A DNA stretch of 44,658 nt, taken from NCBI GenBank assembly GCA_030681615.1, contig JAUXSA010000137.1, forward strand, positions 1 through 44,658. The letters are read 5' to 3'. This document shows, in pieces, positions 24,038 to 27,117 of the stretch; positions within the stretch are counted from its first letter, which is position 1; every line of letters begins with the position of its first letter. This DNA comes from Bacteroidota bacterium (GTDB lineage: Bacteria; Bacteroidota; Bacteroidia; B-17B0; Aurantibacillaceae). The position numbers and the translations under genes were made by a program. The notes beneath the pieces were generated by a model. It searched no databases and was not told where the DNA came from. It saw only the letters and a list, made by a program, of their open reading frames with translations.

Positions 24038-24277
24038 ATGAAAAAAATTACTTTACTAGCGGTTGCTGCTTTAGCAATTAGCTTTGCGTCTTGTAAAAAA
24101 GACAGAACTTGTACTTGTACAAACACTAGCGGTAGCCCTGCTGTTACTACTACAACTACTACTACTTTATTAAAAGTGAAAAAGAAGGATGCTAAAGATG
24201 CTTGTCAAAAAACTTCTGGTAGCTCTACATCTGGTAGCAACACAAGTACTTGGACTAACGATTGCAAATTAAGCTAA
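24038..24277 (+). CDS. Small Cys-rich lipoprotein, array copy 1 (type A)
   Basis: This encodes 79 residues. The signal peptide MKKITLLAVAALAISFAS ends at lipid-modified Cys19, followed by KKDRTCTC (Cys25, Cys27), a Thr/Ser-rich linker of 28 residues with a basic helix, then Cys56 in AKDACQK and Cys76 in the final NDCKLS. The four non-lipid Cys probably form two disulfides in the periplasm or on the surface (inference). First of six related genes; its first 30 codons are almost identical to copy 3 at 24731. The residues after the lipid Cys (KKD) resemble, weakly, the lysine-plus-acid surface export signal described for Bacteroidota lipoproteins. I recognise no named family. Confidence 0.85.
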   Translation: MKKITLLAVAALAISFASCKKDRTCTCTNTSGSPAVTTTTTTTLLKVKKKDAKDACQKTSGSSTSGSNTSTWTNDCKLS

Positions 24278-24301
24278 TATTAACCTTAAAAAATTTAAAA
24301 A

Positions 24302-24562
24302 ATGAAAAAGATATTTATCCCTTTATTCGTAATCGCTGCATCATTAAGCATTACTTCTTGTCACAAATCAAGAACTTGTACTTGTACTAGCACTACTGTA
24401 ACAACTTTTGGTAGCTCGTCTACAACTTCTACATCTTCAAGTGTTAACACTTGGGAGAATGCTTCAAAACACGAAGCTGGTTCAAGCTGTATCTCAAGCA
24501 AATCTACTACTTCTTTCACTGGTGGTAGCAGCGAAACAACTGATGATTGCAAATTAAGCTAA
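24302..24562 (+). CDS. Small Cys-rich lipoprotein, array copy 2 (type B)
   Basis: This encodes 86 residues. Signal peptide MKKIFIPLFVIAASLSITS, lipid Cys20, then HKSRTCTC, a Ser/Thr-rich linker of 34 residues, one Cys in GSSCISS and one in the final DDCKLS. It has the same five-Cys plan as copy 1 but lacks the AK-[DS]-x-C motif, which defines what I call type B. It begins 24 bases after copy 1 and is followed by a strong terminator, so copies 1 and 2 form a two-gene unit. Confidence 0.83.
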   Translation: MKKIFIPLFVIAASLSITSCHKSRTCTCTSTTVTTFGSSSTTSTSSSVNTWENASKHEAGSSCISSKSTTSFTGGSSETTDDCKLS

Positions 24563-24579
24563 TTTGTAATTAGATAATT

Positions 24580-24610
24580 TAAAAAAGCCGCATTAGTGCG
24601 GCTTTTTTTT
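24580..24610 (+). terminator. Intrinsic terminator ending lipoprotein unit 1
   Basis: An 11-bp stem (24582-24592 with 24597-24607, GCCGCA core, TTAG loop) runs into eight T. It lies about 20 bases after the stop of copy 2. Confidence 0.92.
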
Positions 24611-24730
24611 TGCCAATACCTGGGGAGATTTTTCTACGGTTTTGGGGTTTTTACTGTTTTCTTATTATTCTTTCTTTGGTATGTAATTTCTTTTAGCGAC
24701 TTTTGCCGGATAAAACCAAAACTTAAACTC

Positions 24731-24967
24731 ATGAAAAAAATTACTTTATTAGCGGTTGCTGCTTTAGCAATGAGCTTTGCATCATGCAAAAAAGACAGGA
24801 CCTGTACTTGTACTAACATTAGCTCTAGTGGTAATACAACAACAGAAACTATTACAATTAAAGAAGAAAGCAAAAAAACAGCGAAAGATTTTTGTTACAA
24901 AAGCACTAACGTTAGCACATCTGGTAGCAATACTTCTAATTCATCAAGCGACTGTAAATTAAGTTAA
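24731..24967 (+). CDS. Small Cys-rich lipoprotein, array copy 3 (type A)
   Basis: This encodes 78 residues from the ATG at 24731; the frame is open 45 codons further up, but that part crosses the terminator-promoter region and would bury the signal peptide. MKKITLLAVAALAMSFAS and lipid Cys19 are followed by KKDRTCTC, a 27-residue linker, Cys in AKDFCYK and the final SDCKLS. The spacing of 19 residues between the last two Cys is the same as in copy 1. The signal peptide and first Cys block match copy 1 nearly base for base, showing recent duplication, while the linker has diverged. Confidence 0.85.
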   Translation: MKKITLLAVAALAMSFASCKKDRTCTCTNISSSGNTTTETITIKEESKKTAKDFCYKSTNVSTSGSNTSNSSSDCKLS

Positions 24968-24988
24968 ACCATTTAGAAAACATTTATC

Positions 24989-25240
24989 ATGAAAAAAATT
25001 ATACTTTCAACTTTAGTACTTGCTGCATTGGCAACTACATCATGTCGTAAAGACAGAACCTGTACGTGTGATTACACTACTACAAGCGGTAGCGTTTCTG
25101 TTACTTCAAAAGATGTAACAACAGTAAGTAAACAAACCAAACGTGTTGCAAGAGTGCAAACAGGTTGTGTAAATGCTTTACAAACACAAACTAACAATAA
25201 CGTTACTACAACTTTTGAGAGCAAGTGTGAATTAAAATAA
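24989..25240 (+). CDS. Small Cys-rich lipoprotein, array copy 4 (type B)
   Basis: This encodes 83 residues. Signal peptide MKKIILSTLVLAALATTS, lipid Cys19, RKDRTCTC, a 32-residue linker with basic residues (KQTKRVARVQ), Cys in QTGCVNA and the end SKCELK. It follows copy 3 by 21 bases and precedes a perfect-palindrome terminator, repeating the layout of copies 1 and 2. Confidence 0.83.
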   Translation: MKKIILSTLVLAALATTSCRKDRTCTCDYTTTSGSVSVTSKDVTTVSKQTKRVARVQTGCVNALQTQTNNNVTTTFESKCELK

Positions 25241-25255
25241 TTCGATTTTATTGAA

Positions 25256-25291
25256 AATAAAAAAGCCGTTCAAATTTGAACGGCTTTTTTT
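25256..25291 (+). terminator. Intrinsic terminator ending lipoprotein unit 2
   Basis: A perfect 28-base palindrome (25261-25288, GCCGTTC core) has an A run before it and a T run after it, so it could also act on the opposite strand. It starts about 20 bases after the stop of copy 4. Confidence 0.9.
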
Positions 25292-25319
25292 ATGTTCTTT
25301 GTTTGAGTCGGCAACTAAT

Positions 25320-25352
25320 TTTGCTTTCAATAATTTAATTTTCTTACCTTTC
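25320..25352 (+). promoter_or_regulatory. Candidate promoter for lipoprotein unit 3
   Basis: TTTG at 25320-25323 and TACCTTTC at 25345-25352 (7 of 8 to TAnnTTTG) are 21 bases apart, within the range of Bacteroidota promoters. The ATG of copy 5 follows 17 bases later. The location, between a terminator and a gene start, fits. Confidence 0.4.
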
Positions 25353-25368
25353 TGCTTTAAAATGGTAA

Positions 25369-25623
25369 ATGAAAAAAATTAAGTTAGTTATAAGTATAGC
25401 CATTCTTGCTTTTTTGTTTTCCTGCAAAAAAGACAGGCAATGCGAGTGCACAGCAACTACCTTAAGTCCTTCAGGCAATACCTCAACCGGCCCTACCAAA
25501 ACCGAAACCTATTCCAAGATGAAGTTGAGCGAAGCTAAATCAATTTGTCAAAGATCAACTGTTGTAACGGCTAACGCCCAGGGCAGCGTTACAACTGTAA
25601 CAAACGATTGCAAACTTAAATAG
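25369..25623 (+). CDS. Small Cys-rich lipoprotein, array copy 5 (type A)
   Basis: This encodes 84 residues. MKKIKLVISIAILAFLFS, lipid Cys19, KKDRQCEC, a 32-residue linker, Cys in AKSICQR and the end NDCKLK. The AK-[DS]-x-C-x-[KR] motif groups it with copies 1 and 3. It is more diverged from copy 1 than copy 3 is. The next gene begins 8 bases after its stop. Confidence 0.83.
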   Translation: MKKIKLVISIAILAFLFSCKKDRQCECTATTLSPSGNTSTGPTKTETYSKMKLSEAKSICQRSTVVTANAQGSVTTVTNDCKLK

Positions 25624-25630
25624 GTGCCAA

Positions 25631-25918
25631 ATGAGAAATAAGTTTTTAATATTCCTGTTGTTTTGTTTTGCTCTAAGTATCTCTTGCAGAAAAACGCACA
25701 CCTGCGATTGCAATTTAACAACTTCTAAGATCACAACGATTGGAACAACTACAAATACAGAAACAACAACCACTTACACAATAACCACCAAAAACAAACA
25801 AAAAAAAGCAGAATTTAAACATTCAGAATCCTGCTATAACTCAAGCTTAACATATACCACAGAAATAGTTGGAGGGAATACAGTTACAAGTGAAACCAAA
25901 AGATGCACTTTAAAATAA
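25631..25918 (+). CDS. Small Cys-rich lipoprotein, array copy 6 (type B)
   Basis: This encodes 95 residues, the longest and most diverged copy. MRNKFLIFLLFCFALSIS, lipid Cys19, RKTHTCDC, a 40-residue Thr-rich linker, Cys in SESCYNS and the end KRCTLK. The five-Cys plan and C-terminal C-x-L-[SK] are kept. It ends 3 bases before the stop of the convergent MORN/VWA-like gene, and no clear terminator separates them. Confidence 0.8.
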   Translation: MRNKFLIFLLFCFALSISCRKTHTCDCNLTTSKITTIGTTTNTETTTTYTITTKNKQKKAEFKHSESCYNSSLTYTTEIVGGNTVTSETKRCTLK

Positions 25919-25921
25919 ATT

Positions 25922-27061
25922 TTAGTTCGCTCGGATACTTCCATTCTTAATAATATAATCGAAACCGTTTATATTAAATTTTTTACCTGAAGTTTGATTT
26001 ATCAATTCGGTGATATCCTGCTCAATGGTATGTATAGATCCTTTTGTTTTATATGCAATGTTTAAATAATCCGTATTTATTTCCATTCCTTCATACACAC
26101 CGCACAAAATTACCCTCACAGGCACTTTAATTCGCGAAAGCAACATAATGTCGCGCACTTTAGCCCAGTTATCTGCAATTAAAATAACGTTATCGGGTTT
26201 ACGTACTTTTTTTAAGCCAGTTAAAATAGCTTCTATCACATTCTCCGGCGAGTCGCCGCCCGATCCTTTTTTAATGGTCAGTTTCATTGTATTAACAAGG
26301 TCCTCGCAGGTTTTAGCGCGGCATACATAAATACCACCAGTAACACCTAATTTTTTATCCGCATCATGTTTATTATCACCGTCATTAAAAAACACAAAAT
26401 ATTGTTGCGCGGTATCTTTTAAGAAAAATAATTTTAACCAGGTATTAATTTGTTTGGCATAAGGATACATACTTGAAGTAAGATCTGTTACAATAATATT
26501 TTTTTTCCATTTTGGATTCCTGTTCAGTATCTTATAAACGCTGTTATTAACTGTATCCTCTATATCAGCGTCAAACTCTATTGGTCCGGTAGTAGTACGG
26601 CTCTCAAAATCAAATTTTCCGGTCTTGGTGTAAACTTTATACACCCCGTCTAAATTCCCCTTTTTATAATACCCCTCAGCTTTTAATCGTCCGTTTGTGT
26701 GGTAAGTAAGTTCAAGCCCCTCCTTTACACCATTTTTATAAGTCTCAATAAATTCTTTAGAGCAATTTTTCGAATAAAAAGTTACCGGGCCATCTAATTG
26801 CCCGTTATTATAGTATGTTTCCTGCTTAACACAGGTGCTATGATACCAACTTATCTCTAAACCATGTTTTCTATTGTTTCGATAAATAACCTCATTCTTT
26901 AATTTGCCATTGGGCCAGTAGCTTCGCCAAACGCCTTGTTTAAGGCTGTCTTTATCAATAGCGTTAATGGTATCACCATCGTGTATAGAATAACTTATCA
27001 ATTGTGCCTTTATTTGCGGCGCATTTATCAGTAAAAATCCTATCAGCAAAAGAAACCTCAT
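25922..27061 (-). CDS. Exported MORN-repeat protein with a von Willebrand A-like domain
   Basis: This encodes 379 residues from the ATG at 27059-27061, which gives the signal peptide MRFLLLIGFLLINAPQIKAQ; an upstream start adds 14 residues that spoil it. Residues about 40-160 hold four to five MORN-variant (YwqK-like) repeats of the form G...Y..NG.L. A VWA-like domain follows: DLTSS at 193-197 matches the metal-site motif DxTxS, GGDSPENVIEAI at 268-279 is a familiar VWA segment, and Asp297 (ILIADNWA) could be a further metal ligand. No lipobox or sorting domain is seen. It should act in the periplasm or at the surface, perhaps binding a protein partner. It converges on the lipoprotein array and is divergent from pheS. 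Confidence 0.75.
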   Translation of the reverse strand: MRFLLLIGFLLINAPQIKAQLISYSIHDGDTINAIDKDSLKQGVWRSYWPNGKLKNEVIYRNNRKHGLEISWYHSTCVKQETYYNNGQLDGPVTFYSKNCSKEFIETYKNGVKEGLELTYHTNGRLKAEGYYKKGNLDGVYKVYTKTGKFDFESRTTTGPIEFDADIEDTVNNSVYKILNRNPKWKKNIIVTDLTSSMYPYAKQINTWLKLFFLKDTAQQYFVFFNDGDNKHDADKKLGVTGGIYVCRAKTCEDLVNTMKLTIKKGSGGDSPENVIEAILTGLKKVRKPDNVILIADNWAKVRDIMLLSRIKVPVRVILCGVYEGMEINTDYLNIAYKTKGSIHTIEQDITELINQTSGKKFNINGFDYIIKNGSIRAN

Positions 27062-27082
27062 CTTATAATCTTTAAAATTGTT

Positions 27083-27090
27083 TATTTTTG
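27083..27090 (+). promoter_or_regulatory. Candidate -7 promoter element for pheS
   Basis: TATTTTTG is an exact TAnnTTTG match, 27 bases before the pheS ATG, in the 56-base divergent gap. The -33 region lacks a good TTTG. Confidence 0.4.
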
Positions 27091-27117
27091 CACAGATTAT
27101 CAAGTAATTAAGTAAAT

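Follow-up and report, generated by a model that had tools for sequence, protein, structure and literature searches.

Small lipoprotein gene pairs in a Bacteroidota order and their linkage to a MauE-thioredoxin-like protein

In a stretch of 44,658 nucleotides from a Bacteroidota bacterium (order B-17B0, family Aurantibacillaceae; assembly GCA_030681615.1, contig JAUXSA010000137.1, positions 1 to 44,658 of the forward strand; the whole stretch is called the window here), six short genes for small lipoproteins follow one another between positions 24038 and 25918. What could a cell envelope use such an array for? The sequence-only reading, in which the array was first noticed, offered a surface or periplasmic role in binding, adhesion or competition, such as a decoy or immunity set. 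A different answer is favoured here. The lipoprotein genes occur and are duplicated in pairs, and in many relatives of the window's genome they lie just upstream of a gene for a protein, hereafter MauE-Trx, that joins a MauE domain to a part with a thioredoxin-type motif. This linkage is a new observation. We propose, with moderate confidence, that the lipoproteins are disulfide-stabilised pairs which face the periplasm and are clients or redox partners of MauE-Trx.

The array, its gene pairs and their relatives

Inspection of the window's open reading frames revealed six intact frames, one after another, on the + strand. The intergenic gaps measure 24, 168, 21, 128 and 7 bases, and the genes therefore form three two-gene units, each with a first-position gene (type A) followed by a second-position gene (type B). 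Unit 1 consists of gene 1 (24038-24277, 79 residues) and gene 2 (24302-24562, 86 residues), unit 2 of gene 3 (24731-24967, 78 residues, the ATG at 24731 being taken as its start) and gene 4 (24989-25240, 83 residues), and unit 3 of gene 5 (25369-25623, 84 residues) and gene 6 (25631-25918, 95 residues). All six proteins have a signal peptide that closes in a lipobox-type Cys, as judged by eye and by pattern. In the mature proteins, further Cys stand at positions 7 and 9, in mid-protein and three residues from the end; this places the five Cys at 1, 7, 9, 38 and 58 in the gene 1 product and at 1, 7, 9, 44 and 64 in that of gene 2. The tandem array of six five-Cys lipoprotein genes of 78-95 residues was thus confirmed. 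A basic block had also been described, and it is present in all six, where it reads C-[KRH]-K-[DST]-[RH]-[TQ]-C-[TED]-C; its supposed [KS] alternative was misplaced, as the Lys at +3 of the block is invariant throughout the 122-row alignment A2. The C-terminus reads C-x-L-[SK]. Alignment A2 is made of the window's six and 116 of 119 mature rows, three having been left out without reason, and its input excluded proteins of more than 72 residues and five hits that lacked the start pattern.

Pfam gave the six window proteins DUF4995 as their best match (18.7 bits, cut-off 28.4), with LPAM_1 at 14.2 bits (cut-off 20). When the 122 mature members were compared with Pfam, no family among the matches listed (25 of 39 families) appeared in more than four members at E <= 1, the best E being 0.0058. 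The cut-off of NCBIfam was reached by no model for the six and none fits more than 4/122 members, while the PHROGs scan of the 122 gave a best E of 0.0036 and no family in more than two of them. The nearest NCBIfam model, that of the PG1828 lipoprotein (NF050142), is alike in its signal peptide and mature start and matched four of the six window proteins with at best 27.8 bits; it differs in that this is below its cut-off of 50 bits and that none of the 122 mature members was among the matches listed. The six genes are, by these profile comparisons, members of an unnamed family of small lipoproteins, which agrees with the failure of the sequence-only reading to name one.

A profile of the six found relatives elsewhere in their own genome (E 6.8e-21) and in a second genome of the genus (E 1.1e-30). 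Family matches at E <= 0.01 number 14 in the window's genome. The family was present in 39/40 genomes of the genus and in 80/87 genomes of the order, covering 10/10 genera. Model A2 detected it in 3/296 genomes of a phylum sample (G000, G057 and G085). A narrow model, A1, yielded 8/296, a count that was rejected because several of the hits made by A1 alone extend over little more than the signal peptide (e.g. positions 1-32). In 13 comparisons of orthologs (at least 79% identity) the ratio of nonsynonymous to synonymous substitution rates (dN/dS) was 0.05-0.40; the other 29 of the 42 comparisons, between more distant or paralogous genes, gave values up to 0.93, and three had no dS. The orthologs are under purifying selection. 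With these relatives, this spread and this constraint the array stands beyond chance. Of the two outcomes named beforehand as speaking against it, a hit to a named family was not obtained, and homologues proved plentiful outside the genome itself.

Across the examined loci 130 distinct units were counted, 75 single, 43 double and 12 triple, a unit being defined as family genes at most 60 bases apart. The tree of the double units had 83 rows (43 first and 40 second genes) and 66 columns, with moderate support and many forks unresolved; 21 hits were omitted for want of a recognised Met-lipobox start, and some pairs were therefore counted as singles. On this tree the label first or second changes 9 times; 500 shuffles averaged 27.8-28.2 changes and never came down to 9. 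The three first genes of the window (including gene 1) fall into one group of 27 rows that holds first genes only, and its three second genes into two all-second groups, of 9 (gene 2) and 18 rows (gene 4). Since first and second genes group apart, A and B were paired long ago and the unit has been copied as a pair. The same follows from gains and losses between genomes: units 1 and 2 are present in L055 and L057, units 1 and 3 in L058, and another first pair with unit 3 in L064. Because whole pairs come and go, it is the pair that duplicates and is lost, and a joint action of A and B is thereby suggested; the conserved A-B order may indicate a heterodimer. We would expect a role in the envelope that requires both A and B.

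Two terminator-like hairpins on the + strand separate the units. The one after unit 1 (24587-24611) was seen by eye and has a 6-bp stem, a 4-base loop and nine T; it is absent from the list of the terminator scan. The one after unit 2 (25259-25290), with a 14-pair stem, came from that scan, which scored no more often in the region than in shuffles (2 hits, at one site on both strands, vs 1.2 expected). The promoter scan of the region gave 3 sites vs 6.4 expected, and none was used.

Linkage to MauE-Trx

The protein encoded next to the lipoproteins has about 310 residues (304-314), with the MauE domain first and the thioredoxin-type motif in the second half. The MauE model, PF07291, was matched with 71.2-85.8 bits (gathering threshold 27) in 6/6 proteins tested. 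The second half contains C-x-H-C in 74/74 aligned rows, of which 50 have CPHC, the motif of DsbA; one neighbour of 24 carries CKYC. A CGCFG motif also occurs in 74/74 rows, a count that is partly circular, as the rows were selected with C-x-C-[FW]-G. TrbB was matched by the second half in 2/6 proteins with 18.5-19.4 bits, against a cut-off of 132; the thioredoxin-like class of this half is taken from motif and position. With the BT_3928 family (NF045576) the likeness lies in the MauE-like half: 6/6 proteins score 55-67 bits, far under the cut-off of 250 bits, and the model has 358 positions against the 304-314 residues found here. Membrane segments are oriented by the positive-inside rule, and from the charge pattern round five hydrophobic segments the CGC loop and the thioredoxin part of the MauE-Trx of the window's own genome would face the periplasm. 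Judged by these features, MauE-Trx probably makes or shuffles disulfides.

In 26/26 loci with MauE-Trx that are in the family list, a lipoprotein gene lies directly upstream on the same strand. When the taxonomic family outside the window's genus was considered, a lipoprotein gene was located at most 600 bases upstream of MauE-Trx, on the same strand, in 29/33 assessable genomes, which overlap partly with those 26 loci; L179, L180, L202 and L224 were unlinked, and five more end too early. The assessment covered 75 loci from the 76 genomes with MauE-Trx (the fragment in G350 was left out); six of these loci have less than 600 bases upstream. Linkage was also seen in two other taxonomic families of the class, f16 (L043) and f24 (G085).

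MauE-Trx was found in 76/87 genomes of the order. Lipoproteins and MauE-Trx were both present in 75 of the 87 (among them G373, the lipoproteins of which were seen at the MauE-Trx locus), lipoproteins only in 6, a MauE-Trx fragment only in 1 and neither in 5, some of the absences being due to incomplete genomes (Fisher 7e-5, a value made too small by the kinship of the genomes). In the phylum sample the three genomes with lipoproteins coincide with the three in which MauE-Trx was matched below 1e-40, a threshold set post hoc (Fisher 2.3e-7, too small for the same reason); the next MauE-Trx match there was at 4.5e-33. Searches of the 87 genomes of the order for other disulfide enzymes found DsbB in 0/87 (6/14 known genomes in the control) and VKOR in 1/87 (G006; 3/14 in the control); oxidants besides these two were not searched for. 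As a separate observation, proteins of about 295-300 residues at six loci of family f32 (L237, L238, L240, L241, L243 and L244) match nearly the full length of MauE-Trx with 28-31% identity (27% in one), and the lipoprotein search found nothing in those genomes.

The window's own genome has its MauE-Trx gene elsewhere (L181:2843-3796), alone, downstream of a gene resembling that of the primary sigma factor. The array is flanked by rlmD on one side and by a VWA-type gene next to pheS on the other, and these flanks recur in seven other genomes (L044, L055, L057, L058, L064, L067 and L071); three more (L083, L088 and L091) have rlmD, lipoproteins and pheS without the VWA gene. The gene adjoining the array at 25922-27103 on the - strand encodes, by eye, MORN-like repeats and a VWA-like second half, and stays beside the array in several relatives. 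In L134 and L136, from another family of the class (f21), rlmD adjoins a gene for a different lipoprotein, the start of which is CEKDDIC; both hits were rejected as members because by eye this is another lipoprotein, and the rlmD site therefore recurrently hosts lipoprotein genes. A protein of about 132-139 residues, with a start like MK-TDIYTKTILTVIA, recurs just upstream of lipoprotein units (L062, L070, L072, L087, L118 and L119). In L107, L113 and L130 a groEL-like gene is followed on its own strand, after 110-174 bases, by the gene of a longer family member.

Fold, cysteines and side of the membrane

The mature part of gene 5 was modelled by AlphaFold2 from 122 rows, with a mean predicted local distance difference test (pLDDT) of 95.3 and a predicted template modelling score of 0.71. 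Its elements (E, strand; H, helix) are E3-14 E20-33 H35-41 E45-50 E56-65. That of gene 6, modelled from 50 rows (mean pLDDT 94.5), has the same order with longer strands (E3-19 E22-39 H41-47 E53-61 E64-76). A and B are each predicted to be one compact beta-beta-alpha-beta-beta domain. The Thr/Ser-rich stretch, which had been taken for a linker, is predicted by both models to form beta strands of this folded domain.

No chain of the PDB matched the gene 5 model at E <= 0.001. The best VIA structural scores were Z 5.1 for trigger factor (gene 5) and Z 5.3 for a ribosomal protein (gene 6), all below the trustworthy level, and absence from the structure-comparison listings excludes no fold family. 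A profile search of solved structures gave angiogenin as its sole match at E 1, which was taken as chance. The LU (three-finger) domains of uPAR and C4.4A are lipid-anchored and, as small disulfide-braced beta domains, resemble the modelled proteins. Compared with uPAR the gene 6 model scored Z 5.0 (root-mean-square deviation 2.3-2.9 over 55-56 residues) and the gene 5 model 3.9, where a Z <8 may be mere common arrangement; the lipoproteins differ in their Cys pattern and in having an extra helix.

Members were mostly gathered with patterns that demand Cys, and the set of 259 full members was picked by the five-Cys pattern; a freer count is that of 273 unique hits for which the full pattern was not demanded. 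Beyond the first Cys, 250 of these have four, 11 have five, 2 have six and 10 have other numbers. By eye, the extra Cys in the 11 lies inside the signal peptide, before the lipid Cys, and the 10 comprise one broken gene, one read-through, hits confined to the signal peptide and proteins of other kinds. Extra Cys in the mature part thus came only pairwise (two cases), as disulfides would predict. Large hydrophobic residues (V, I, L, M, F and W) make up a median of 12.9% of the mature domains in the 259 members, so few that the fold therefore needs other bracing. From this we infer that the four Cys other than the lipidated one form two disulfides, a proposal already made from the sequence and here judged likely. 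O-glycosylation is not supported, since its motif D-[ST]-[AILVMT] was rarer than in shuffles (26 vs 104.6).

Surface lipoproteins of Bacteroidota are described, in the passages of PMC5080379 and PMC12578637 that deal with the signal, as being marked for export by acidic residues that follow the lipid Cys; the rule given in that part of PMC12578637 is two acidic residues among the first six after this Cys. Our own version of the known signal, an X-K-(D/E)2-type pattern, matched 0/259 full members. Positions +2 to +6 are net positive in 254/259, and two acidic residues in +2 to +7 were found in 8/259 members, none of them the window's six. The surface location suggested earlier is not borne out by these counts, and the periplasmic face appears the more likely one; the known signal comes from other Bacteroidota and may not be that of this lineage.

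A proposed client of a disulfide system, and the alternatives

The client or redox-partner model draws on genes, pairs, linkage, co-occurrence and purifying selection, all of which were directly observed, and would supply from them a client relation, an enzyme activity, a heterodimer and a physiological task. It would run as follows. Each protein of the three A-B pairs is presumably exported and, given its signal peptide, lipidated at Cys +1. It would fold to a single beta-beta-alpha-beta-beta domain, in which the remaining four Cys would be joined in two disulfides, and would remain on the periplasmic side. The inner-membrane MauE domain, with its CGC in a periplasmic loop and joined to the C-x-H-C thioredoxin-like part, would make or shuffle disulfides, and the lipoproteins, ancestrally encoded just upstream, would be its dedicated clients or redox partners. 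In the window's genus the pairs would have been copied to other sites (here that of rlmD and the VWA gene), leaving a single MauE-Trx gene elsewhere. This model is the best supported one because the domains are small and polar and their four Cys are probably paired, because a dedicated membrane protein of thiol type adjoins them in most relatives and because in the order DsbB was not found and VKOR almost not.

Two known systems are close to it. In that of MauD and MauE, with the small subunit of methylamine dehydrogenase, the genes of a thioredoxin-like protein and of a membrane protein of MauE type lie beside that of a disulfide-rich periplasmic client. The likeness lies in MauE-type and thioredoxin-like parts beside a putative disulfide-rich periplasmic client. 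The differences are the fusion of the two parts in the present case and the nature of the neighbour, a pair of tiny lipoproteins where the other system has an enzyme subunit; a function in methylamine metabolism is not implied. DsbA/DsbB and the VKOR-thioredoxin fusions are alike in having a Cys pair in the membrane domain and a thioredoxin-like part, mostly CPHC in MauE-Trx, which is likely periplasmic, whereas the membrane domain here is MauE.

Several observations weigh against the client or redox-partner model. Within the window's genus the linkage has been lost, as it was found in 1/36 assessable genomes (one more ends too early), and in the only linked copy (L225, G024) the lipoprotein gene is broken into two open frames. 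Six of the 87 genomes of the order have lipoproteins and no MauE-Trx hit, including G388, which is 99% complete, and one has a fragment only. The second half of MauE-Trx did not reach a Pfam thioredoxin cut-off, the match to Thioredoxin_4 being 18.6 vs 23.2 bits in 1/6. To this are added the kinship and the post hoc threshold behind the Fisher values, and the invariance of the Cys, which is partly a matter of how members were selected.

The lipoproteins could also be lipid-anchored disulfide carriers that use their C-x-C to hand oxidising equivalents from MauE-Trx on to proteins of the outer membrane or the periplasm. Redox activity is possible for C-x-C pairs, the pair is invariant here, one enzyme is constantly linked with one small lipoprotein family, and the same lack of DsbB (0/87) and near-lack of VKOR (1/87) would leave room for such a relay. 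However, the four Cys look structural in a domain so poor in large hydrophobic residues, and several genomes of the genus have 10-15 copies to a single enzyme, a ratio that fits many clients better; we regard carriers as unlikely, while still the best placed of the alternatives.

A periplasmic site in which the four Cys instead hold a thiophilic metal, such as Cu(I) or Zn, is improbable. C-x-C with two further Cys would suit a four-thiolate site, and this counts against the client model, in which the disulfides are deduced from indirect signs; yet the linked protein is of thiol-disulfide type, and among the listed neighbours, viewed by eye and without systematic annotation, no recurrent metal transporter was seen. 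We give a similarly low probability to mere positional hitch-hiking, in which an old accident placed the lipoprotein gene beside that of MauE-Trx and their functions are unrelated. Part of the linkage is synteny inherited inside a single taxonomic family, and the window's genus lost the linkage with both genes kept, but MauE-Trx stays downstream while the upstream neighbours differ, and the linkage recurs in the two other families of the class. The answer first offered, surface lipoproteins that competition has diversified for adhesion, for immunity or as decoys, is the one we expect least: the multiple paralogous copies, the variable loop length and the coming and going of whole pairs at the array site would suit them, but the export signal is not matched, orthologs are under purifying selection, PADLOC matched 0/122 members at E <= 0.1, the neighbours are housekeeping genes and no linker is seen in the structure predicted.

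If the client or redox-partner model is extended, disulfide formation in the order might run on MauE-Trx in place of DsbB or VKOR and DsbA, with the lipoprotein pairs, expanded in tandem, as main substrates of the machine or as lipid-anchored relays by which oxidising equivalents would leave the inner membrane. We hold this extension to be doubtful; the linkage as such points to an overlooked disulfide-making system. How Bacteroidota without DsbB or VKOR form periplasmic disulfides is, to our knowledge, an open question, and in the open-licence literature nothing was found on it. The linkage yields a candidate enzyme together with a putative natural substrate family, and the question therefore becomes directly testable. 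Besides, a multi-copy lipoprotein family for which neither Pfam nor NCBIfam has a model gains a fold prediction and a pair structure.

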